IMG/VR virus record: IMGVR_UViG_3300046462_000630
Location: 1-23,141 of that record
DNA: 23,141 bases
Reading direction: 5' to 3' (one strand)
Source: a virus
Made by a program: the position numbers and the translations under genes. Below, in pieces: positions 188 to 19,808 of the stretch (position 1 is the stretch's first letter; every line of letters begins with the position of its first letter). The notes beneath the pieces were generated by a model. The model was not told the DNA's origin, searched no databases, and worked only from the letters and a program-made list of their open reading frames with translations.

Positions 188-955
188 ATGATTGCTGTTC
201 AATCCACTAATCGAGCCGCTATGGACAATGCCCTGGGACTTCTTATAACTATATTGGGCGCGGGCGGCGGAGGCGCGCTAGTAGCATATTTGCTCTGTAA
301 ATCCTTGGGTGAAAAATGGATAGACAGCAAATTTTCTAAAGCACTGGAAAAGCAAAAATATCATCAGTCACTTGAATTGCAAAAACTAAAAATCCAAATT
401 GATGCTCTATTGAGTGGGCGGCTAAAGATGCAGGAACATGAGTTCCAAATCCTGCCAGAGTTGTGGAATGCACTGTACGAAATGCAAATGAGCCTAGGTC
501 ATCTTGTATCGGACTTCAGGATCGAGCCGACTTTGCGGGGACTAACGCACGAAGAATTGGAAAATTTTTTAGAGCAATCATCGCTAAATGCTTATCACAA
601 GCAACAAATGCGCGAGAGTTCCGATAAGGTCGCGTGCTTTAGGTCTATCGTCTACCAACTCGATTTTCTGAGAACAAATACCTTGGTTAGAGATTTCGAC
701 CAAGTGCTTGCCAAAGGAGGCATATTTTTGCCTCCAGACGTGAAAGAGAAATGCAAGAAAATATCGTTCGAAGCAAATAGCATTATGTTTCGCCGCCACC
801 TGGGGTACGATCCAAACGGAACGAATCTTGAGGATAAATGCAAATCAAATTTCGATAGTAAGATAGTCCCGCTCTTTGATGAGGTTGAGCGAGACATTCA
901 GTCGCGCTTGGTTTCTCACGGACAGGCGGTAGATTCAATACTTTCAACGTCGTAA
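188..955 (+). CDS. Membrane-anchored coiled-coil protein, unknown function
   Basis: 255 residues. A hydrophobic, glycine-rich segment at about residues 15-36 looks like one N-terminal transmembrane helix or signal anchor. A charged helical stretch follows (about 40-80, rich in K, E, Q and L) that probably forms a coiled coil, then a soluble, mostly helical domain with no catalytic motif I can identify. From memory, proteins of this layout (TM anchor, KxLEKxK helix, then an EFxxLPE-type motif; here HEFQILPELW near residues 84-93) are common hypotheticals in defence islands and prophage cargo. The ATG at 188 has no clear ribosome binding site, and an in-frame ATG at 221 would still keep the TM segment. 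It stands alone, 76 bases before the AbiJ-like gene, and could be a membrane effector or a sensor. Function unknown. Confidence 0.75.
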   Translation: MIAVQSTNRAAMDNALGLLITILGAGGGGALVAYLLCKSLGEKWIDSKFSKALEKQKYHQSLELQKLKIQIDALLSGRLKMQEHEFQILPELWNALYEMQMSLGHLVSDFRIEPTLRGLTHEELENFLEQSSLNAYHKQQMRESSDKVACFRSIVYQLDFLRTNTLVRDFDQVLAKGGIFLPPDVKEKCKKISFEANSIMFRRHLGYDPNGTNLEDKCKSNFDSKIVPLFDEVERDIQSRLVSHGQAVDSILSTS

Positions 956-1031
956 TATTTGGCAGGTAGCGGAGCGTGCAAATTAATGTCTATCTCCTGG
1001 CCTTCAAAGGAACAAGCAATATTCAATACGA

Positions 1032-2456
1032 ATGACCAAAAAAACAACCCCTCTTGAGACGTGGCGATCGGCGATTGCCGATGCCTTGTGGGCGAACACG
1101 AGCGCCACTAGCCTTCCGACCGTCTGCGTTGGACTGGGCTTGGCAAACGGTGACGTCGACGAAGCGCTTGCAAGCAAGCGTAAATACGTGAGAACTCGCA
1201 TACAGTTGTATAAAGGGCCGGAACTCATTAAATTGGCTGAAGCAGTTCTCGAGGAATTTGATGCCCCTGGATTACAAGACCTGCTATCGGAAGTCAACTT
1301 CCACTCTACCCACCGTATCAGCGACTTCACTCGTCGCGAAGTTTTAAAAAAACTTATCCCACTCGACCCGTTGTTTGGAGAGCTAGGTTTAAATCAGCTC
1401 AACAACAATTTGAATGTCATTGCTCCACCCTGGGATCAGCCAAGCGAATTCGGAGGCGTCTACCGCGGCGTCCCGAAGACCTTCACCGATGATGTCGACA
1501 AGCACTACGTCAACGAGACAGATTGGGATAACTTTCAGCTTTTGGAAAAATGCGGTGCATTAACGTGTACACAAGACCGTTTTTTTGCGCTCCTCCAACG
1601 GCTGCTCGATCCAATTATTCGAAAAGGAAAAGAACAGCAATCTTTAGCCGAAGAATTATCCACCGTGCTACGTCCTGACGGATTTGGTGTAGTTGTAACG
1701 GAACAAGTGTCAGGCCAATCTGTGTACGGTGTACAACGATTGGGAAATGGCGTTGCAGGTGCTGTAAAGAATTTAATCTTCGCTTCCGTTGGTAAAAAAC
1801 CTGAATTGATATTGCGCGATGCTGTCAGCAATGATGTGGAAATCATCAAGCACGGCGACAAATGTCTCATCTATGACCAGCCGCTACCTTCCACTGGCTT
1901 GCCATGGGTAACTATAGCCAAGTGGTGGATGGAGCGTGAGGGCTTCGATGATTTAAAAGTCGCACGGAAGGGTCTAGGCGAAAGATTGCTTCGATCCGTT
2001 GAACTAACGCGCTCACCCGGTGAATATGCGATTTTCCGTACTTATTATGAGGTCTTCGGACCAAGGTTGGGCGAAAAGCTGCCTGCATTAATTCCACAGG
2101 TCTACTTGCACTATGACCCGATGACAGCCGCGCAACGTGGAAACGCAAAGATCCTGGAGCGCCAGCGCATGGATTTTCTGTTGCTGCTGGATAACCACGT
2201 AAGGGTTGTTGTTGAAGTTGATGGAAGACAACACTACGCAGAGGGAGATCAAGCATCGCCAAGACTATACGCAGCCATGGCCGCTGAGGATCGCCGACTT
2301 CGTTTAAAGGGATATGAACTTTATCGATTTGGCGGCGCAGAATTTTCCGATTGCCAGATAGAATCTGACCACAGGTACACCATAGGACCCATCTCGCATG
2401 ATGTGGTGACAGAATTCTTTGAACGACTGTTCCTCAATCATAATCTGAAACTATGA
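1032..2456 (+). CDS. AbiJ-NTD3-type protein with C-terminal PD-(D/E)XK nuclease domain
   Basis: 474 residues. The middle region (about 95-235) resembles the AbiJ N-terminal domain 3 family: FTRREVLKKLI near 99-109, a DRFFALLQRLLDPIIR helix near 182-197 and LRPDGF near 213-218. AbiJ-type proteins are linked to abortive infection in Lactococcus and to defence islands. The C-terminus (about 370-435) has the layout of a Vsr/DUF559-like PD-(D/E)XK nuclease: RMDFLLLLD with D381, VVVEVDGRQHY with E395 and D397, and RRLRLKGYELYRF with K426. An AbiJ-type sensor fused to a nuclease effector is consistent with a single-gene anti-phage protein, though function is inferred. The first 90 residues are helical and unassigned. 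Start is the ATG at 1032; a purine-rich AAGGAA lies some 20 bases upstream, so the ribosome binding site is weak. Its AT-rich codon use contrasts with the phage core genes. Confidence 0.8.
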   Translation: MTKKTTPLETWRSAIADALWANTSATSLPTVCVGLGLANGDVDEALASKRKYVRTRIQLYKGPELIKLAEAVLEEFDAPGLQDLLSEVNFHSTHRISDFTRREVLKKLIPLDPLFGELGLNQLNNNLNVIAPPWDQPSEFGGVYRGVPKTFTDDVDKHYVNETDWDNFQLLEKCGALTCTQDRFFALLQRLLDPIIRKGKEQQSLAEELSTVLRPDGFGVVVTEQVSGQSVYGVQRLGNGVAGAVKNLIFASVGKKPELILRDAVSNDVEIIKHGDKCLIYDQPLPSTGLPWVTIAKWWMEREGFDDLKVARKGLGERLLRSVELTRSPGEYAIFRTYYEVFGPRLGEKLPALIPQVYLHYDPMTAAQRGNAKILERQRMDFLLLLDNHVRVVVEVDGRQHYAEGDQASPRLYAAMAAEDRRLRLKGYELYRFGGAEFSDCQIESDHRYTIGPISHDVVTEFFERLFLNHNLKL

Positions 2457-2670
2457 ATAACCAAGTCACTAACCTGCTTACAACCGCACCTATCCGCAAG
2501 TTCACGGCGTGGAATGAGAGCGAAACCCCGCATTAGCTCTACCTCTCTCTATTTGCTGTAGCAAATTCGAAGCACGCGACTTTCGTCGAATGCGGTTCCG
2601 GTTTTTCCCCTTAGAAATCTGTCCTTGGCTCAACGAGCTATCCATTGCACGCGGGATTACTGTCACTGCA

Positions 2671-2698
2671 TTGCCATTCTAGCTATATTCTGTAGAAT
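2671..2698 (+). promoter_or_regulatory. Candidate sigma70 promoter for the ATPase-PIN-ligase operon
   Basis: TTGCCA at 2671-2676 and TAGAAT at 2693-2698 are separated by 16 bases, close to the -35/-10 consensus. It is the best promoter-like pair before the small ORF at 2728 and the operon starting at 2909. Transcription would begin near 2705 and cover both. Called by eye. Confidence 0.4.
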
Positions 2699-2727
2699 TG
2701 ATTCAGCGCAATTGTTAGGGGGCAAGC

Positions 2728-2823
2728 ATGGCATTACGAAAAATAATCAAGGTGAGCGATAAGACAACTACCATCGAAGCGGCGCTGCCAAGCGGTATTG
2801 CTGGATACCCATTATGCAAGTGA
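2728..2823 (+). CDS. Small ORF (31 codons) leading the ATPase operon, possible gene remnant
   Basis: ATG at 2728 to TGA at 2821-2823, beginning MALRKIIKVSDKTTT. AGGGGGC lies five bases upstream of the ATG, stronger than most ribosome binding sites in this block. The opening residues remind me, from memory only, of small prophage proteins that begin MALRKII and run to about 95 residues; if so this copy is cut off after some 20 residues. Alternatively it is a genuine leader peptide or a small partner of the ATPase operon, whose GTG start is 85 bases downstream. No function can be assigned. Confidence 0.35.
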   Translation: MALRKIIKVSDKTTTIEAALPSGIAGYPLCK

Positions 2824-2908
2824 GATACGATTGAGGGAAATTGTGAGAACACGTCGCTATAGCTAGCACTTCAATCTCAAGTTGTAATAATAATTTAGGA
2901 TAAATATA

Positions 2909-4300
2909 GTGCTGACCAAATTGCGTTTCCAGAATTTCAAAGCTTGGAAAGATACGGACCAAGTCCGACTAGCGCCCCTTACAATTATTTTTGGAGCCAA
3001 TAGCGCCGGAAAAAGTAGTTTAGGGCATCTCCTTCTCGCCCTCAAACAAACTGCGTTGTCTTCGGATCGCCGACGAGCATTACATTTGGGAGACGAAAAT
3101 TCTCTGGTCGATCTTGGGACCTACGACGAGCTCATTCACGGTCATAATTTAGGAAAAAATATGACGTTTGGCTTGGAGTGGAAGCTTCCGCGTCCGTTAG
3201 AGGTCAAGGATCCCCTCCAGTTAGAGCGAAGCCGCGGCGACATACTACAACTTGTAGTTCAACTGGCTACTGCAAAATCGGGGCAGCCCGAAGTGACATC
3301 TTTGGAGTACCGTCTAAGTGACGATGGACATAAAGATATCATCAAAAGTGATTACAAGAGAAATAAAGCTGGGCAATTTGAGCTTACCGCAACGCCATAC
3401 AAGTTGATACGCACAGCTGGGCGGGTATGGCCTTTAGAAGAACCTGAGAAATTCTATAGGGTGTCAGAACAGTCTCGAGCAAGATTCCAAAACGCTGCGT
3501 TTCTATCGGATTTTGCATTGTCAACCGAAGAGATGCTGAGCAAGGTTTACTACCTTGGCCCACTTCGTGAATATCCAAAACGGAGCTATCAGTGGTCAGG
3601 GGATACACCTGAGGATGTAGGGCAAAGAGGCGAGTTCGCAATTGCAGCTATCTTGGCCGCGCAGAGTCAGGATAGAAAATTAAATCGAGGTCCCAGAAAG
3701 AAGCAGCAGCCATTCGCTGAATTTATCGCAAATTGGTTGCAAGATCTTGGCATCATACATAGCTTCCGTGTAAAGCCAGTATCTGAAGGCCGCCGAGACT
3801 ATGAGGTTTTAGTAAAAACCCACGCGACCAGTGCCGAGGTCAAAATAACTGATGTGGGATTTGGCGTTTCCCAAGTGCTCCCGGCAATTGTTCAGGCATT
3901 TTATTGTGAGCCTGATTCGGTCATATGGATGGAGCAGCCTGAAATTCATTTGCATCCACAAGTTCAGGCAGAACTCGCAGACGTTTTTATTTCTGCCATC
4001 AAGGCGCGAGAAAACGGGGTAACGAGAAATGTCCAACTCATCATCGAAAGCCACTCCGAACACTTCTTGAATAGAATTCAAAGGAGAATTGCAGACGAAA
4101 CGCTTTCTCCTAAAGATGTTGCTATCTATTTCGCGAGGAATACTAGTCCTGGGGGTGCTACGCTCGAACCTCTGAAGGTTAACGAGTACGGGGATATTGA
4201 AAATTGGCCTGAGAATTTTTTCGGTGACGAAATGGCTGACCTTACTGCCCGCACAGTTGCCGCGATGAAAAGAAAAAAAGAAAATAAGCAAAAAATATAA
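2909..4300 (+). CDS. AAA/ABC-type ATPase, DUF3696 family (putative defence ATPase)
   Basis: 463 residues. Walker A is FGANSAGKSS at about 28-37, right after an N-terminal beta strand of the SMC/RecF type. The Walker B region is VIWMEQPEIHLHP (about 337-350), where the usual IDEPE reads MEQPE; I recall EQPE as normal for DUF3696 relatives. The switch histidine follows in IIESHSEHFLNRIQRRI, and the DUF3696-like C-terminus has the NEYGDIENWPENFFGDE pattern. Relatives are the ATPase subunits of two-component systems such as Septu and PARIS, where the ATPase senses phage and controls a nuclease partner. The start is GTG 2909: an in-frame TAA at 2891 rules out earlier starts, and TAGGA lies about ten bases upstream. 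The stop overlaps the next ATG by one base (TAATG), so translation is coupled to the PIN gene. I infer that it regulates that nuclease. Confidence 0.88.
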   Translation: MLTKLRFQNFKAWKDTDQVRLAPLTIIFGANSAGKSSLGHLLLALKQTALSSDRRRALHLGDENSLVDLGTYDELIHGHNLGKNMTFGLEWKLPRPLEVKDPLQLERSRGDILQLVVQLATAKSGQPEVTSLEYRLSDDGHKDIIKSDYKRNKAGQFELTATPYKLIRTAGRVWPLEEPEKFYRVSEQSRARFQNAAFLSDFALSTEEMLSKVYYLGPLREYPKRSYQWSGDTPEDVGQRGEFAIAAILAAQSQDRKLNRGPRKKQQPFAEFIANWLQDLGIIHSFRVKPVSEGRRDYEVLVKTHATSAEVKITDVGFGVSQVLPAIVQAFYCEPDSVIWMEQPEIHLHPQVQAELADVFISAIKARENGVTRNVQLIIESHSEHFLNRIQRRIADETLSPKDVAIYFARNTSPGGATLEPLKVNEYGDIENWPENFFGDEMADLTARTVAAMKRKKENKQKI

Positions 4301-4812
4301 TGCAGACTATCAAAATTGTTGATACCAACGTAATTTTGGTCGCAAATGGTCAGCACGAAAACGTAGAACCGGACTGCGTTTCCACTTGCGCATTGGCGCT
4401 TCAAGACCTGATGAAAAATGGAAAACTTGCTCTCGACGGTGGCTATTTAATACTTAACGAATATCAGAATAAAACACAGCCGAAGAAAGGTAATCGTCCA
4501 GGTGACGCTTTTGTGAAATGGGCATTACAAAACTCTGGGAATCCAACTCGTTGTGACCAAGTAGAGCTGCAAGCACATGCGACTCGCAAATTTGAGAGTT
4601 TTCCAGATCACGTCGACCTGCAGAATTTTGATGAACCAGATAGGAAATTTGTTGCCGTTTCAATGGCGCATCCGGATCACCCAGAAATTTTGCAAGCTGC
4701 AGATTCAAAGTGGCTAGACTGGGCTCCTGCTCTTAAAGAAAATCAAGTATTAGTTAATTTTTTATGTATTCGTGACGTGAAAAAATTTCATAAGAGAAAA
4801 TTTGGAAAATGA
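4300..4812 (+). CDS. PIN-domain ribonuclease
   Basis: 170 residues, the length of a single PIN domain plus a basic tail. The acidic quartet is readable: D8 in KIVDTNVIL, E54 in LILNEYQNK, D114 in FDEPDRKFVAVS and D135 in LQAADSKW. The second half has the classic PIN order: DxxFVAVA-like helix, strand, then the Asp-containing turn. PIN enzymes are metal-dependent RNases (VapC toxins, for example, cut tRNA or rRNA) that leave 3'-OH and 5'-phosphate ends. There is no antitoxin gene of the VapB kind beside it. Instead the gene starts on the last base of the ATPase stop codon and ends by an ATGA overlap with the RNA ligase gene. It is probably the effector of an ATPase-controlled system. The substrate is unknown, and the tail KKFHKRKFGK could bind RNA. 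Confidence 0.82.
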   Translation: MQTIKIVDTNVILVANGQHENVEPDCVSTCALALQDLMKNGKLALDGGYLILNEYQNKTQPKKGNRPGDAFVKWALQNSGNPTRCDQVELQAHATRKFESFPDHVDLQNFDEPDRKFVAVSMAHPDHPEILQAADSKWLDWAPALKENQVLVNFLCIRDVKKFHKRKFGK

Positions 4813-5501
4813 ACAATTTTTTCCGCTTTCCTCATACTCCGCACATTGCTTGGCTAGCTGCCCAAGCGCCGCGGGACGACAAAGTCCTAAGTTGTGCAGA
4901 AGCAGAATTAATTCTTAAAAATGAAGTAAAAATAGAAGAAAAAATCGATGGCGCAAATCTGGGTATATCAATATCTCGTTCAGGCGAATTAGTTGCTCAA
5001 AATCGAGGTCAATATTTGACCCATCCCTACAGTGGCCAATTCAGAAAACTGACAACCTGGCTTGAAGTGCATCAAGATAAATTCTTCGATTGCCTGGGAG
5101 AAGACTTGATGCTGTTTGGCGAATGGAGTCTCGCTCGTCATTCACTTGATTATGAAAATTTACCCGATTGGTTTCTTCTTTTTGACGTCTATGATCGTTA
5201 TGAAAAGAAATTCTGGTCTACTAGCCGTCGAGATGCATTGGCTGCGGCATTGAATCTTGCAACAGTTCCTATCCTGTTTAGCGGCCATATAACACTACTA
5301 GAACTCAAAGCATTTTTGATGAAGTCAAAAAGTAAATTTCGGCGGGGATCGCTTGAAGGGTTAATTATTAGGCAGGAAACGTTAGAATGGCTTACCGTAC
5401 GAACCAAGCTAGTGCGACCGGATTTTATTCAAGGTATCGAAGATCATTGGACCCGCCGTCCGATTGAACAAAATAGAGTATCTAGCAAACGGCATCGCTA
5501 A
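4809..5501 (+). CDS. ATP-dependent RNA ligase (Rnl2-like nucleotidyltransferase)
   Basis: 230 residues with the ordered motifs of covalent nucleotidyltransferases. Motif I is EEKIDGAN, with K45 as the probable AMP-accepting lysine. R66 lies in AQNRGQYL, motif III is LFGEWSLARHSLDY (about 102-115), motif IIIa WFLLFDVYDRY (121-131), motif IV SLEGLIIRQE (181-190) and motif V VRTKLVRPDF (197-206). This matches the RNA_ligase family of T4 Rnl2-like enzymes, which join 3'-OH to 5'-phosphate ends using ATP. It lacks most of the C-terminal domain of T4 Rnl2 (334 residues), as many short family members do. The ATG at 4809 overlaps the PIN stop codon (ATGA), so the two are translationally coupled. Coupling a ligase to an RNase suggests repair or antidote activity. 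An anti-defence tRNA-repair role is an alternative. Confidence 0.88.
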   Translation: MNNFFRFPHTPHIAWLAAQAPRDDKVLSCAEAELILKNEVKIEEKIDGANLGISISRSGELVAQNRGQYLTHPYSGQFRKLTTWLEVHQDKFFDCLGEDLMLFGEWSLARHSLDYENLPDWFLLFDVYDRYEKKFWSTSRRDALAAALNLATVPILFSGHITLLELKAFLMKSKSKFRRGSLEGLIIRQETLEWLTVRTKLVRPDFIQGIEDHWTRRPIEQNRVSSKRHR

Positions 5502-5555
5502 AACTGAGAACATACCCCAGGATTGAGGTTCAATTTACCTGTGCGGAATAGGCTA

Positions 5556-6221
5556 ATGGAAAAACAAGGCGACGAGATCAAAGCCTATTGCAACGTTTGT
5601 GCAGGTGAACGCGACCATGAGGTTCTGTTTGCTGTAATGCGCGAATGGCATGAGGACGATGGCTCCTACGATGAATTCGAGCAGTGTTTGGTAGCCGCAT
5701 GCTGCGGATGCAAGCATCGCATTTTTCTGAAACGTTGGCAGAACAGCCCCCAAGTCGAGGTCACTCAATATCCACCGAAGACGATTCGGAAAACACCTGA
5801 TTGGCTCTTTAATCTTTTCTTGAGCAATACAGCTAATTCGACCAAGAACGAACTTATCACTGAAATTTACGCTGCATTGGGAGCGAACTGCACAAGGCTT
5901 GCTGTCTTGGGTATCCGCGCGTTGCTAGAACATATCATGATCGAGAAAATTGGTGATCAGGGAAGTTTCGAAAACAATTTGGCTGCGTTTCAGGCAGATG
6001 GGTTTATTTCGTCAGTGCAGCAATCTGCAATGTCGCCTGTTATTCAGGCGGGACATGCCAGCATGCACCGGGCTTATAACCCACCCTTGGACGATGTTAT
6101 GCACTGCCTTGATGTCACAGAAAATCTCATATTAGCAATATACATTCATCCAAATCGCTCGGCACAAATGTACATTCCCGAACGCGCCAAACTGGCAAAA
6201 AAGGTAAAAGCCCGTTCCTAA
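5556..6221 (+). CDS. DUF4145 domain protein with N-terminal zinc-ribbon-like cysteines
   Basis: 221 residues from the ATG at 5556, which has GGAATAGG just upstream; a TTG at 5523 would add 11 residues and is less likely. The N-terminus carries CNVC (C12, C15) and CCGC (C49, C50, C52), a probable zinc ribbon, followed by a beta-rich stretch. The C-terminal half (about 95-205) is the helical DUF4145 domain, with ALGANCTRLAVLGIRALLEHI and a PPLDDVMHCLDVTENLI region. DUF4145 is distantly related to HEPN-type helical domains and appears in restriction enzymes and defence genes, but I see no clear RxxxxH active site in the expected place. It lies 54 bases after the ligase gene on the same strand, so it may be a fourth member of that operon or an independent cargo gene. 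Confidence 0.72.
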   Translation: MEKQGDEIKAYCNVCAGERDHEVLFAVMREWHEDDGSYDEFEQCLVAACCGCKHRIFLKRWQNSPQVEVTQYPPKTIRKTPDWLFNLFLSNTANSTKNELITEIYAALGANCTRLAVLGIRALLEHIMIEKIGDQGSFENNLAAFQADGFISSVQQSAMSPVIQAGHASMHRAYNPPLDDVMHCLDVTENLILAIYIHPNRSAQMYIPERAKLAKKVKARS

Positions 6222-16321: not shown

Positions 16322-16787
16322 GGCACATCTCAAAGCCGCCATTGCCGACTTGACTCAGAACCCCGACAAGCTGCTGGTGTTCGCCGATGAAGGCAATACG
16401 GTTGCCACCGGCACCGGCTCTTTGTCGTTTGAATATCGGTACAAGCTCAACATCATCATTACCGACTATAGCGGCGATGCCGACGCCATCATGGTGGCGC
16501 TGCTGGCTTGGGCCGAAGTCCACCAGCGTGACTTGCTGGACAATGCGGACCTGCGAAAAACCGGTATTGGCTTTGATGTCGACTTCAATAACCATCAAAC
16601 GATTGATCTGTCGGTCAAGCTGGCGCTGACTGAGCGCGTAGTCGTCAAGCCTGGTAATGATGGCCGGCTGGACGTGCGACATCCGGCGGAACCGCAACTC
16701 ACCCCGGTCTATACGGACCAATTCTGGCAAGCCTACGCGGGAGATTCGTTGATCGCTGAGTGGCACACGCCGGCAGATCCGCAATGA
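16299..16787 (+). CDS. R: Tail completion protein gpR
   Basis: 162 residues (P2 gpR 155). The family pattern is visible: MYKPTSLRAHLKAAI opening, KLLVFADEGNTVATG (about 24-38), the FEYRYKLNIIITDYSGD strand region and LLAWAEVHQRDLL. gpR caps the tail tube end together with gpS for joining to the head. It overlaps Rz1 at its start and gpS at its end (ATGA). Confidence 0.93.
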   Translation: MYKPTSLRAHLKAAIADLTQNPDKLLVFADEGNTVATGTGSLSFEYRYKLNIIITDYSGDADAIMVALLAWAEVHQRDLLDNADLRKTGIGFDVDFNNHQTIDLSVKLALTERVVVKPGNDGRLDVRHPAEPQLTPVYTDQFWQAYAGDSLIAEWHTPADPQ

Positions 16788-17257
16788 GCGACGATCTGCA
16801 CGCCATCGAGCAATGGGCCGGCGCGTTGCTGGCCCAGCTCCAACCCGGCCAGCGTCGCGTGATCACGCGCAAGATTGCCCAGGACTTGCGACGTAGTCAG
16901 GCGCGACGCATCGCCAGCCAGCAGGCGCCGGACGGCACACCTTATGCGAAACGCAAACAGCGCAAGAACCTGCGCGGCAAGAAGGGACGCGTCAAGCGTC
17001 AGAAAGCGGCGATGTTTGAGAAGATCCGTACACAAAAAAATCTCAAAATCGAACAAGATGAAAACCAGCTATCGGTCGGCTTCTTCGGACGCGTGGCACG
17101 GATCGCCCGCGTCCACCAGGAGGGATTGACAGACAAGGTCGACAAACAAAGAGGGCCGGCGTATCACTATCCGGCCCGGCCTTTACTTGGGTTCAGCGCT
17201 ACCGATCAGACGCTGATACGCGATGCGCTGATACGACATTTGAGTAGCACCTTTTAG
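16784..17257 (+). CDS. S: Tail completion protein gpS
   Basis: 157 residues (P2 gpS 150) from the ATG overlapping the gpR stop; a frame from 16760 lies within R. It starts MSDDLHAIEQWAGALLAQL and has the virion-morphogenesis pattern: RRVITRKIAQDLRRSQARRI, PDGTPYAKRK, a basic stretch, and RIARVHQEGL with ARPLLGFS. gpS completes the tail end. It is intact even though a foreign gene ends only two bases after its stop codon, on the opposite strand. Confidence 0.93.
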   Translation: MSDDLHAIEQWAGALLAQLQPGQRRVITRKIAQDLRRSQARRIASQQAPDGTPYAKRKQRKNLRGKKGRVKRQKAAMFEKIRTQKNLKIEQDENQLSVGFFGRVARIARVHQEGLTDKVDKQRGPAYHYPARPLLGFSATDQTLIRDALIRHLSSTF

Positions 17258-17259
17258 GC

Positions 17260-18948
17260 TCAATTCCATCTCCAGTCGGTGCTAAGCTCCTTTGCGATAA
17301 GGTGCTTTTGTAATTTGGCATTAAACGCTTCGATGCTAGTAGTCAAAATAGAGGTATCGCCAGACAACAATTTTGTGTACGTTTCTATTATCTTTTTTCC
17401 CTCTTCCGAATCGCTGTCGGCAATAGCGGAAATTGCATTATCAACTTTACCGAACGTTAAATCGTCATTGAAAAATTCACTCTCAAAATTTTGGAATTGA
17501 GTAAATATTTTGCTTCCAGGTGAGCCAGAAACAGCGACACGAATAGCCTCGTTTATACTCCACATCGGGTTCCCGACGATCTTTTCCTTTCGTTTGCACA
17601 TTGGGGTATCGGAATCGTGAATGACCGTATATACAACTTTGAACTGATTTAGGATTCTAGCGAAAAGCGGTATATTTGCTTTACCGATGCAATTTATAAC
17701 ATGCACGTCGATACCTAGTTGATCAGCAACATATTTCACAATGACTTGCTCTGTGTCCCCTTCCACTAGAACGATGTTGTCGTAAAAAAAGAATTCATTG
17801 ACTATCGGATTGCAAGAACGAACCATTTGCAATCTCTTCTTTTCATCGGCATCAAACGACGCTTTGTCGGTAGAAATATATCTTTGCTTCCCAGACGATG
17901 CATCAACTCGGACGATCGTTGTATGGTCTTTTGAGAGATCAATAAAAACAGGGGAATGAGTTGTTGCAATTACCTGCCAATCCGAATTATCCAGAGCAAA
18001 CTGATATAGAGATTCTCTTGCGCTACGAATAGTAGGAGGATGCAAAAAAGCCTCTGGTTCGTCTATAAGCAGAATTTTTCCTGCGTCACTGGATGTCTTC
18101 GTTTTTTTCTTGCCGGTAATGGGTTCTGACATTACCGAAAGTGCGGACCACAATAGTGCGCGCTGAAGACCAGTTCCTTGAAGCGCCAAAGGAGTATTGC
18201 CTCCGTCAACTGTCGCAACACGCAAATATGAATCCGCCGCTATTACTTTCTCATCAATCGTATCTTTAGAACGAGGAACTACTTCGATAGTGGCTCCGGG
18301 AAAAACTTCCGATACATTCTCAGTAATTTTTGTCGATATCTCATCAAGCATTACTTTTGATTGTGCAAAGAGTTTTGCCGCTAGTCGTTCAATCTCATCA
18401 AATGCGTCCTTAGTACTCCCTGATTCTGCCTTTAATTGTTGCTTTACATGTTCTTTAAGCATTGCAACAATTTTTGTTTGAGTAATATCGACAGGGTCCG
18501 TTGGTCTAATACGAATGGGTTGAGGAATCCGGCTTTTAATCAAAGAGTCCCACCCACCAGAGCCTCCATCAATGAAATCCCCTATTGTCGGATCAAATGA
18601 TTGCTTTTTCCCCTTTTCTCCCGCCTGACTCCAGACCCATCGAACCTTTATACACGTACCATAATCACAATCTTCATGCGCCCATTTCTCACCGATTACA
18701 TCCAGATCATCTTTGGTAAGAGAATCAAAAATACCTGTAATTTCAACTGGCATTTTCTGATCCTCATTATGAAAATGTGATACTTCAAGCTCTGCCCCCG
18801 ACGAGGCAAATGCCTCGTAGGCGTCCAAAATTGTAGACTTCCCCGCATTATTGGGGCCAATTAAGACGACAATTTCGTCTATTTTGATTTGACAACCGAG
18901 ATTGCCGATTCGGCGGTAGTTTTTTACCAACAGTCCTGCAAGTCTCAT
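17260..18948 (-). CDS. OLD-family ATP-dependent endonuclease (AAA + Toprim)
   Basis: 562 residues from the ATG at 18948, preceded by AAGGGGGG (strong ribosome binding site); an extension to 19023 lacks one. Walker A is GPNNAGKS (31-38), the ABC-like signature region LQGTGLQRALLWS (256-268), Walker B ILLIDEPEAFLHP (292-304), with switch H331 in IATTHSP. The C-terminal Toprim domain has E396 in VLVEGDTE and D445/D447 in VIHDSD. OLD proteins are nucleases; P2 Old blocks lambda, and the class also includes Gabija GajA. No helicase partner lies next to it, so it is a lone (class 1-like) OLD. The gene is AT-rich and antisense to the late operon, separated from S by two bases: a cargo gene that can be expressed in the lysogen. 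Confidence 0.92.
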   Translation of the reverse strand: MRLAGLLVKNYRRIGNLGCQIKIDEIVVLIGPNNAGKSTILDAYEAFASSGAELEVSHFHNEDQKMPVEITGIFDSLTKDDLDVIGEKWAHEDCDYGTCIKVRWVWSQAGEKGKKQSFDPTIGDFIDGGSGGWDSLIKSRIPQPIRIRPTDPVDITQTKIVAMLKEHVKQQLKAESGSTKDAFDEIERLAAKLFAQSKVMLDEISTKITENVSEVFPGATIEVVPRSKDTIDEKVIAADSYLRVATVDGGNTPLALQGTGLQRALLWSALSVMSEPITGKKKTKTSSDAGKILLIDEPEAFLHPPTIRSARESLYQFALDNSDWQVIATTHSPVFIDLSKDHTTIVRVDASSGKQRYISTDKASFDADEKKRLQMVRSCNPIVNEFFFYDNIVLVEGDTEQVIVKYVADQLGIDVHVINCIGKANIPLFARILNQFKVVYTVIHDSDTPMCKRKEKIVGNPMWSINEAIRVAVSGSPGSKIFTQFQNFESEFFNDDLTFGKVDNAISAIADSDSEEGKKIIETYTKLLSGDTSILTTSIEAFNAKLQKHLIAKELSTDWRWN

Positions 18949-19008
18949 GATCCCCCCCTTGATATACAAGCCCAACGATATGCATTTGGTTCGAGATGTG
19001 GCAATTTC

Positions 19009-19036
19009 ATAGTAGAGCGTCAATCAAATTCCTCAA
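19009..19036 (-). promoter_or_regulatory. Candidate promoter for the OLD-family gene
   Basis: On the minus strand TTGAGG (19036-19031) and TACTAT (19014-19009) are spaced by 16 bases, each matching four of six consensus bases, some 60 bases before the ATG at 18948. A promoter of its own is expected for a lysogenic cargo gene set against the late operon. Called by eye. Confidence 0.3.
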
Positions 19037-19094
19037 AGCAATATTTTGTGCCAATAAGCACTACCAATAACTCTTACACCAAGCTCGACAGCGG

Positions 19095-19113
19095 TTGGTA
19101 TGCCGCATAGCAA
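19095..19113. promoter_or_regulatory. TTG-N13-CAA dyad before gene V, candidate late-activator site
   Basis: GGTTG (19093-19097) and CAACC (19111-19115) form an inverted repeat centred about 57 bases before the V start, close to the distance (55) between the similar dyad at 11200-11218 and the O start. P2 has an Ogr-dependent promoter before V. The spacing differs from the textbook TGT-N12-ACA and this arm reads GTTG rather than TTGT, so the assignment is tentative. Confidence 0.25.
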
Positions 19114-19160
19114 CCCACTACCAGGTGCGCCGATTGCGGCAACCCGGCAACATGCATCGC

Positions 19161-19808
19161 ATGACTGCCGACCACTCCGAATTGCTGCGCTTACTCCTGA
19201 ATCTGATCCGGTTCGGCATCATTGCCGACATCGATCACGACACCCAGCGCGTGCGCGTGCAGGTCGGTAAGAACACCACTACATGGCGCCCCTGGATCAG
19301 CATGCGCGCCGGCGATGCACAAACCTGGTTTCCGCCCTCCTTGGGTGAACAGGTCATCGTGTTGTCGCCCGAGGGCGATTTCACCCAGGCCGCGATCCTA
19401 CCGGCGATCTATTCCGACAAATCCCCAACGCCGTCCACCAACCCGGCGCACCACGCGATCCGCTACGCCGATGGCGCCGTGGTCCAATACGACCGCGAGA
19501 GCCACACATTGAGCGCGACACTGCCGGACGGCACCAGCGTGATCGCAGCGCCTGGCCTGGTCACCTCCAATGCCGAAGATACCGTCTGCACAGGCAACCT
19601 GACCGTTAAAAAGAACCTGACGGTCGAAGGCTTCGCGGCGTTGAACGCTGGCATGAATGTGCAAGCCGGCAAGGAAGGCGGTCCCGCTGCCGTGGTGCAA
19701 GGCGTGATCCAAGCCACAATGGACATGATTGCCGCTGGCATCAGCTTGGTAAAACATCCGCACGGCGGCGTTAAAAAAGGCGACGAAGATTCAGGGACAC
19801 CGAAATGA
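19161..19808 (+). CDS. V: Baseplate spike protein gpV
   Basis: 215 residues from the ATG at 19161 (P2 gpV 211); an ATG at 19152 is equally possible, and a GTG-type extension to 19095 has no homology logic. The OB-fold start (LLNLIRFGIIADIDHDTQRV), the WRPWISMRAGDAQTWFPPSLGEQV stretch (about 47-70) and VLSPEGDFTQAAILPAIYS are typical. A C-terminal beta-helix and HPHGG near residues 199-203 end the spike. The trimer punctures the outer membrane. It opens the second tail operon, just beyond the OLD insertion. Confidence 0.93.
   Translation: MTADHSELLRLLLNLIRFGIIADIDHDTQRVRVQVGKNTTTWRPWISMRAGDAQTWFPPSLGEQVIVLSPEGDFTQAAILPAIYSDKSPTPSTNPAHHAIRYADGAVVQYDRESHTLSATLPDGTSVIAAPGLVTSNAEDTVCTGNLTVKKNLTVEGFAALNAGMNVQAGKEGGPAAVVQGVIQATMDMIAAGISLVKHPHGGVKKGDEDSGTPK

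Follow-up and report, generated by a model that had tools for sequence, protein, structure and literature searches.

We find that the late region of a P2-like phage carries an antisense gene of the OLD family between late genes S and V. We put at about 80% the probability that this gene is a horizontally acquired Class 1 OLD moron residing in the orf30 slot of a P2-like betaproteobacterial phage and probably excluding other phages.

An OLD-family gene lies between S and V

The sequence analysed, hereafter the window, is a 23,141-base virus record (IMG/VR) in which the P2 late genes stand in P2 order, with Q and P on the minus strand followed by O, N, M, L ... R, S, V, W, J, I and H on the plus strand. 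S, which overlaps R by 4 bp in the window and relatives alike, closes the upstream late operon and forms the left border of the slot; V, with an alternative ATG at 19161, opens the downstream one. The features of the junction are as follows.

16784–17257, plus strand: P2 gpS homologue, tail completion (Phage_tail_S PF05069, 4e-37; phrog_26)
17258 to about 19085: insert without significant similarity to other S–V gaps examined (blastn against all other gaps, GC drop)
17260–18948, minus strand: OLD-family ABC ATPase plus Toprim gene, 562 aa (profile and motif matches)
18949–18963, minus strand: Shine–Dalgarno-like purine-rich AAGGGGGGG, just 5′ of the OLD ATG (minus strand read directly)
19086–19151, plus strand: conserved region upstream of V, right border of the slot (77–92% identity over 46–69 bp in 18 relatives)
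19094–19114: dyad GTTGGTATGC-C-GCATAGCAAC with one mismatch, kept in relatives (25 upstream regions aligned)
19152–19808, plus strand: P2 gpV homologue, baseplate spike (Phage_base_V PF04717, 2.6e-19; GpV Apex motif PF18946, 2.4e-7)

An earlier note on this DNA had described an antisense, AT-rich gene of 562 residues stopping two bases past the S stop between intact neighbours, and both points agree with our analysis. The S stop occupies 17255–17257 and the OLD stop begins at 17260, leaving a 2-base spacer; GC content is 0.40–0.44 within the gene versus about 0.60 on either side; and S and V give full-length Pfam matches to Phage_tail_S, Phage_base_V and GpV Apex. The minus-strand ORF read from a TTG codon encodes up to 587 aa, and its ATG form (17260–18948) 562 aa. 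Comparison of the window gap with all other S–V gaps by blastn returned matches only from about 19085 on. The stretch from 18949 to about 19085, upstream of the OLD ATG, thus lies within the insert and directly meets the conserved region before V, as the same note had proposed for the V promoter region. This 66-bp region, dyad included, is intact to the right of the OLD insert and common to 18 relatives. By analogy with P2 it would be the V-operon promoter, and the dyad, whose position matches that of the annotated pV activator site in the P2 record, is probably the activator site of that promoter.

The product resembles Class 1 OLD proteins

Assignment to the OLD family, first suggested from the DNA letters, was borne out by matches beyond chance: the 562-aa protein matched the PADLOC Old model (2.5e-78), Pfam AAA_15 (PF13175, 1.2e-32) and OLD-like_TOPRIM (PF20469, 1.8e-14), and, among solved structures, the Class 1 OLD from Thermus scotoductus (6P74, 5e-17). 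The ATPase motifs are present (Walker A GPNNAGKS, residues 31–38; Walker B LLIDEPE, 293–299; H-loop TTHSP, 329–333), as are the Toprim residues E396 and D445/D447, and the Walker A lysine, E396, D445 and D447 are invariant across four aligned OLD proteins. On these domains, a homing-endonuclease reading of the gene was ruled out. OLD classes are defined by gene context (review PMC10568477). Since the gene stands singly, its neighbours S and V being neither a UvrD-like helicase (Class 2/Gabija, GajB) nor a retron reverse transcriptase (Class 3), the context-based scheme of that review places it as a stand-alone Class 1 OLD. Class 1 also differs from Class 2 in that its Toprim domain has no helical insert of about 50 aa; the length of 562 aa fits Class 1, and the structural model, built from a three-sequence alignment, was poor (AlphaFold pLDDT 47, pTM 0.34).

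The closest phage homologue, EVB59_017/018 of Rhizobium phage RHph_Y3_1, is 61% identical over the whole length; it lies in a non-P2 setting near an integrase, unlike the window gene at S–V. The RHph_Y3_1 annotation divides the homologue (locus L001, 5695–7393) into an ATPase ORF and a Toprim ORF, which may reflect either a frameshift or a real split. Among 294 Oxalobacteraceae-type genomes, OLD matches at E ≤ 1e-30 occurred in seven; because all seven are divergent (31–56% identity), no recent chromosomal donor was found in this set.

The S–V junction is a known cargo slot

The earlier note had proposed the S–V junction as a further cargo slot, differing from the Z/fun and tin/old sites. The difference holds. 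In the literature orf30 is named separately among the three loci of P2-like phages with horizontally acquired genes, namely the tin/old region, the Z region and orf30 (PMC3091744). That S–V is a cargo slot also holds, but it is not an unrecognised one, because P2's own orf30 and the OLD gene of Burkholderia phage KS5 already occupy it; the window OLD adds to a known site. P2 orf30 (NC_001895, 9439–10224, minus strand), annotated as non-essential, lies between S and V, flanked by the terminator of the O operon and the activator site of pV. It was described as an insertion at S–V that WPhi and L-413C lack, with a different ORF at its position in phiCTX (PMC2771037), and phage R18C carries a 741-bp ORF at S–V (PMC6823313). 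Like the window OLD, orf30 is antisense in the S–V slot, but its 261-aa product falls outside the OLD protein cluster.

In Escherichia coli, 1,570 of 5,426 genomes match the P2 S–V stretch, and 454 hold at least 80% of it, including orf30. In most of the remaining matches sampled, S and V are almost adjacent, that is, the slot is empty, and a few carry other genes there (for example, 1,044 bp antisense or 741 bp sense).

In KS5 an OLD gene occupies precisely the S–V junction (table in PMC3091744); it is recorded as gp28, an OLD-type ATP-dependent endonuclease on the sense strand (NC_015265). It shares slot and family with the window OLD (PADLOC Old, 9e-57) and clusters with the window protein, but is 626 aa long, lies on the strand of S and V and is only 25–29% identical to the antisense, 562-aa window OLD. 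This divergence would fit either separate acquisition or an ancient split. With the window, the S–V slot has a second OLD gene, from a phage lineage other than that of KS5 and on the opposite strand, and because the two differ in lineage and strand, the OLD family probably reached this slot more than once.

Most S–V junctions of related phages carry cargo

Relatives were gathered through V, so that sampling was independent of cargo. Among 106 distinct S–V junctions, 21 were empty (≤100 bp) and 85 filled (≥500 bp), with none between; filled gaps had a median of 1,685 bp and a maximum of 5,968 bp. The control junctions R–S, V–W and W–J overlapped or were at most 2 bp apart in every measurable close relative. 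Cargo GC averaged 0.46 versus 0.63 in the flanks and was lower in 86 of 87 loci. The junction comparison called for in the earlier note thus turned up much other cargo; the relatives do use the site, and they do not all share OLD there. OLD as a core gene of the phage lineage was ruled out, no close relative having OLD at S–V. On one 75-kb contig (IMGVR_UViG_2687453619_000001), two P2-like S–V regions with different cargo (loci L012 and L080) lie about 43 kb apart and represent two side-by-side prophages.

The 179 cargo ORFs of at least 90 aa, some of the shorter of which may be spurious, formed 133 clusters, 111 of them singletons. Recognisable cargo comprised AbiTii (two), PtuA/PDC-M01A, AriA/PtuA-like, LmuB-like, TIR and SLOG proteins, DNA methyltransferases and the KS5 OLD; the majority had no recognisable defence function. 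This majority is consistent with a reading in which the window OLD is itself non-defence cargo, either a selfish, toxic gene or an ATPase expressed in the lysogen that modulates the host's DNA or RNA metabolism. OLD proteins outside defence do exist, an archaeal one being a cell-cycle factor (PMC12796447). Against this stand the active-site residues kept in the window protein and the fact that the sole phage-borne Class 1 OLD in review PMC10568477, P2 Old, excludes lambda. We regard the non-defence reading as unlikely, and favour a phage-excluding moron.

Methyltransferase genes and S fragments in the nearest clade

Every junction (23 of 23) in the clade closest to the window is filled; several come from Collimonas genomes. 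Besides the window, this clade has 22 members, and in 16 of them an antisense DNA methyltransferase gene lies near V, often accompanied by a Mu-Com-like zinc-ribbon gene (PF10122); in the window OLD takes this place. In Collimonas-type P2-like phages, three S–V methyltransferase types occur (D12 class, N6/N4 and C5), all antisense, and at several loci the methyltransferase lies directly downstream of the Mu-Com-like gene, pairs that suggest a possible mom/com-style control in P2-like phages. Antisense S–V methyltransferases include the following.

L005, 4861–5962
L007, 4802–5933
L009, 4801–5905
L013, 4802–5957
L016, 5831–6592

The frequency of these cassettes in close relatives would suit a slot that serves modification of phage DNA, with OLD substituting for, or deriving from, a Com–methyltransferase cassette, for example as part of a self/non-self DNA mark. 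Yet OLD and the cassette share no sequence link, the window insert is unlike the other gaps, OLD has no methyltransferase domain, and six close relatives carry neither OLD nor cassette, which together make such a role very improbable beside that of an acquired exclusion gene.

At least five close relatives, and the more distant L137, hold fragments of the 3′ end of S inside the gap.

L003, 3147–3231
L008, 4362–4464
L016, 5773–5862
L017, 3231–3489
L081, 4641–4786

Where close relatives allowed a comparison, the fragment usually matches the S of another phage at least as well as it matches the intact S of its own phage. Because the fragments resemble the S of other phages, new cargo may have been brought in by recombination within S, and the fragments are likely scars of such exchange, the old S end being left behind. 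A search of the window insert gave no S-gene remnants.

Proposed role of the S–V OLD protein

The slot follows the last gene of one late operon (..R, S) and precedes the promoter, probably activator-dependent, of the next (V, W, J, I..), and because of this position gain or loss of cargo should harm neither operon. Being antisense, OLD is out of reach of the late promoters; most likely a promoter of its own drives it in the lysogen. A promoter scan gave no significant sigma-70-type promoter for OLD (three predicted versus 3.7 expected by chance).

For the window protein we infer expression in the lysogen, a trigger, a target and an anti-phage effect. The protein would probably exclude competing phages in the manner of P2 Old: an infection-linked cue, which for P2 Old is inhibition of host RecBCD, would act as the trigger, and the Toprim nuclease would then stop the infected cell. 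P2 Old responds to RecBC inhibition and reportedly cleaves host tRNA, as summarised in PMC13261556, and P2 old-tin confers anti-phage immunity (PMC9122126). In YbjD, also a Class 1 OLD, activity depends neither on RecBC nor on the Toprim domain (PMC13261556), so the P2 Old trigger and nuclease step may not transfer to the window protein. The low identity to P2 Old (~25%), the lack of a recognisable defence function in most of the cargo, the archaeal OLD that serves the cell cycle rather than defence and the chance-level promoter predictions all count against Old-type exclusion.

The arrangement of OLD and S could also act in its own right, antisense reading from OLD into S tuning the late genes while the protein is secondary. 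The two genes are convergent and 2 bases apart, a terminator scan gave no clear hairpin of terminator type at the end of S, and 13 surveyed loci have antisense ORFs (≥90 aa) that terminate no more than 100 bp from the S stop codon. Survey-wide, however, cargo ORFs lie on both strands (99 plus, 80 minus) and the KS5 OLD is in sense, so cargo orientation is not fixed, and of the readings weighed here convergent transcription seems to us the least probable. Exclusion by the OLD protein itself remains our preferred reading.

Comparison with known systems

Past the portal gene Q, away from S–V, the window contains a second AT-rich cargo block (188–6221) with the following genes.

1032–2456: AbiJ_NTD3 protein
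2909–4300: HEC-03B/DUF3696 ATPase
4300–4812: HEC-03A
4809–5501: RNA ligase
5523–6221: DUF4145 protein

This block is likely the cos-proximal region of tin/old type, and on its predicted gene content the phage carries defence-type cargo at two sites. The block in the first 6.2 kb was ruled out as part of the S–V insert, lying beyond the portal gene and about 11 kb away.

As described by Rousset et al. 2022 (PMC9122126), the P2 tin/old hotspot is a variable moron site of P2-like phages with many defence genes; S–V resembles it in being a variable moron site. The hotspot lies between A and Q beside cos, unlike S–V; the available part of that paper does not name S–V, and the paper makes no mention of orf30. 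Roughly 80% of the relatives sampled have cargo in the S–V slot, mostly single genes unmatched within the sample, and cloning of S–V gaps should therefore offer a cheap search for new anti-phage genes, of the kind carried out at tin/old. Going further, S–V might rank beside the cos-proximal tin/old site as a third, broad hotspot of defence in P2-like phages, one so far unexploited for discovery, with orphan genes that include new anti-phage systems and with Collimonas-type layering through recombination in S that leaves S 3′-end fragments; we advance this tentatively, at somewhat less than even odds.

Two P2 features provide the nearest points of reference. At the junction itself, P2 has an annotated terminator after S, whereas none is evident there in the window. 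P2 Old is, like the window OLD, a stand-alone, phage-borne Class 1 OLD, with 25% identity over 80% of the protein; exclusion activity is known experimentally for P2 Old and is predicted for the window OLD. The P2 gene lies in the tin/old region adjoining cos, and the window gene lies at S–V.
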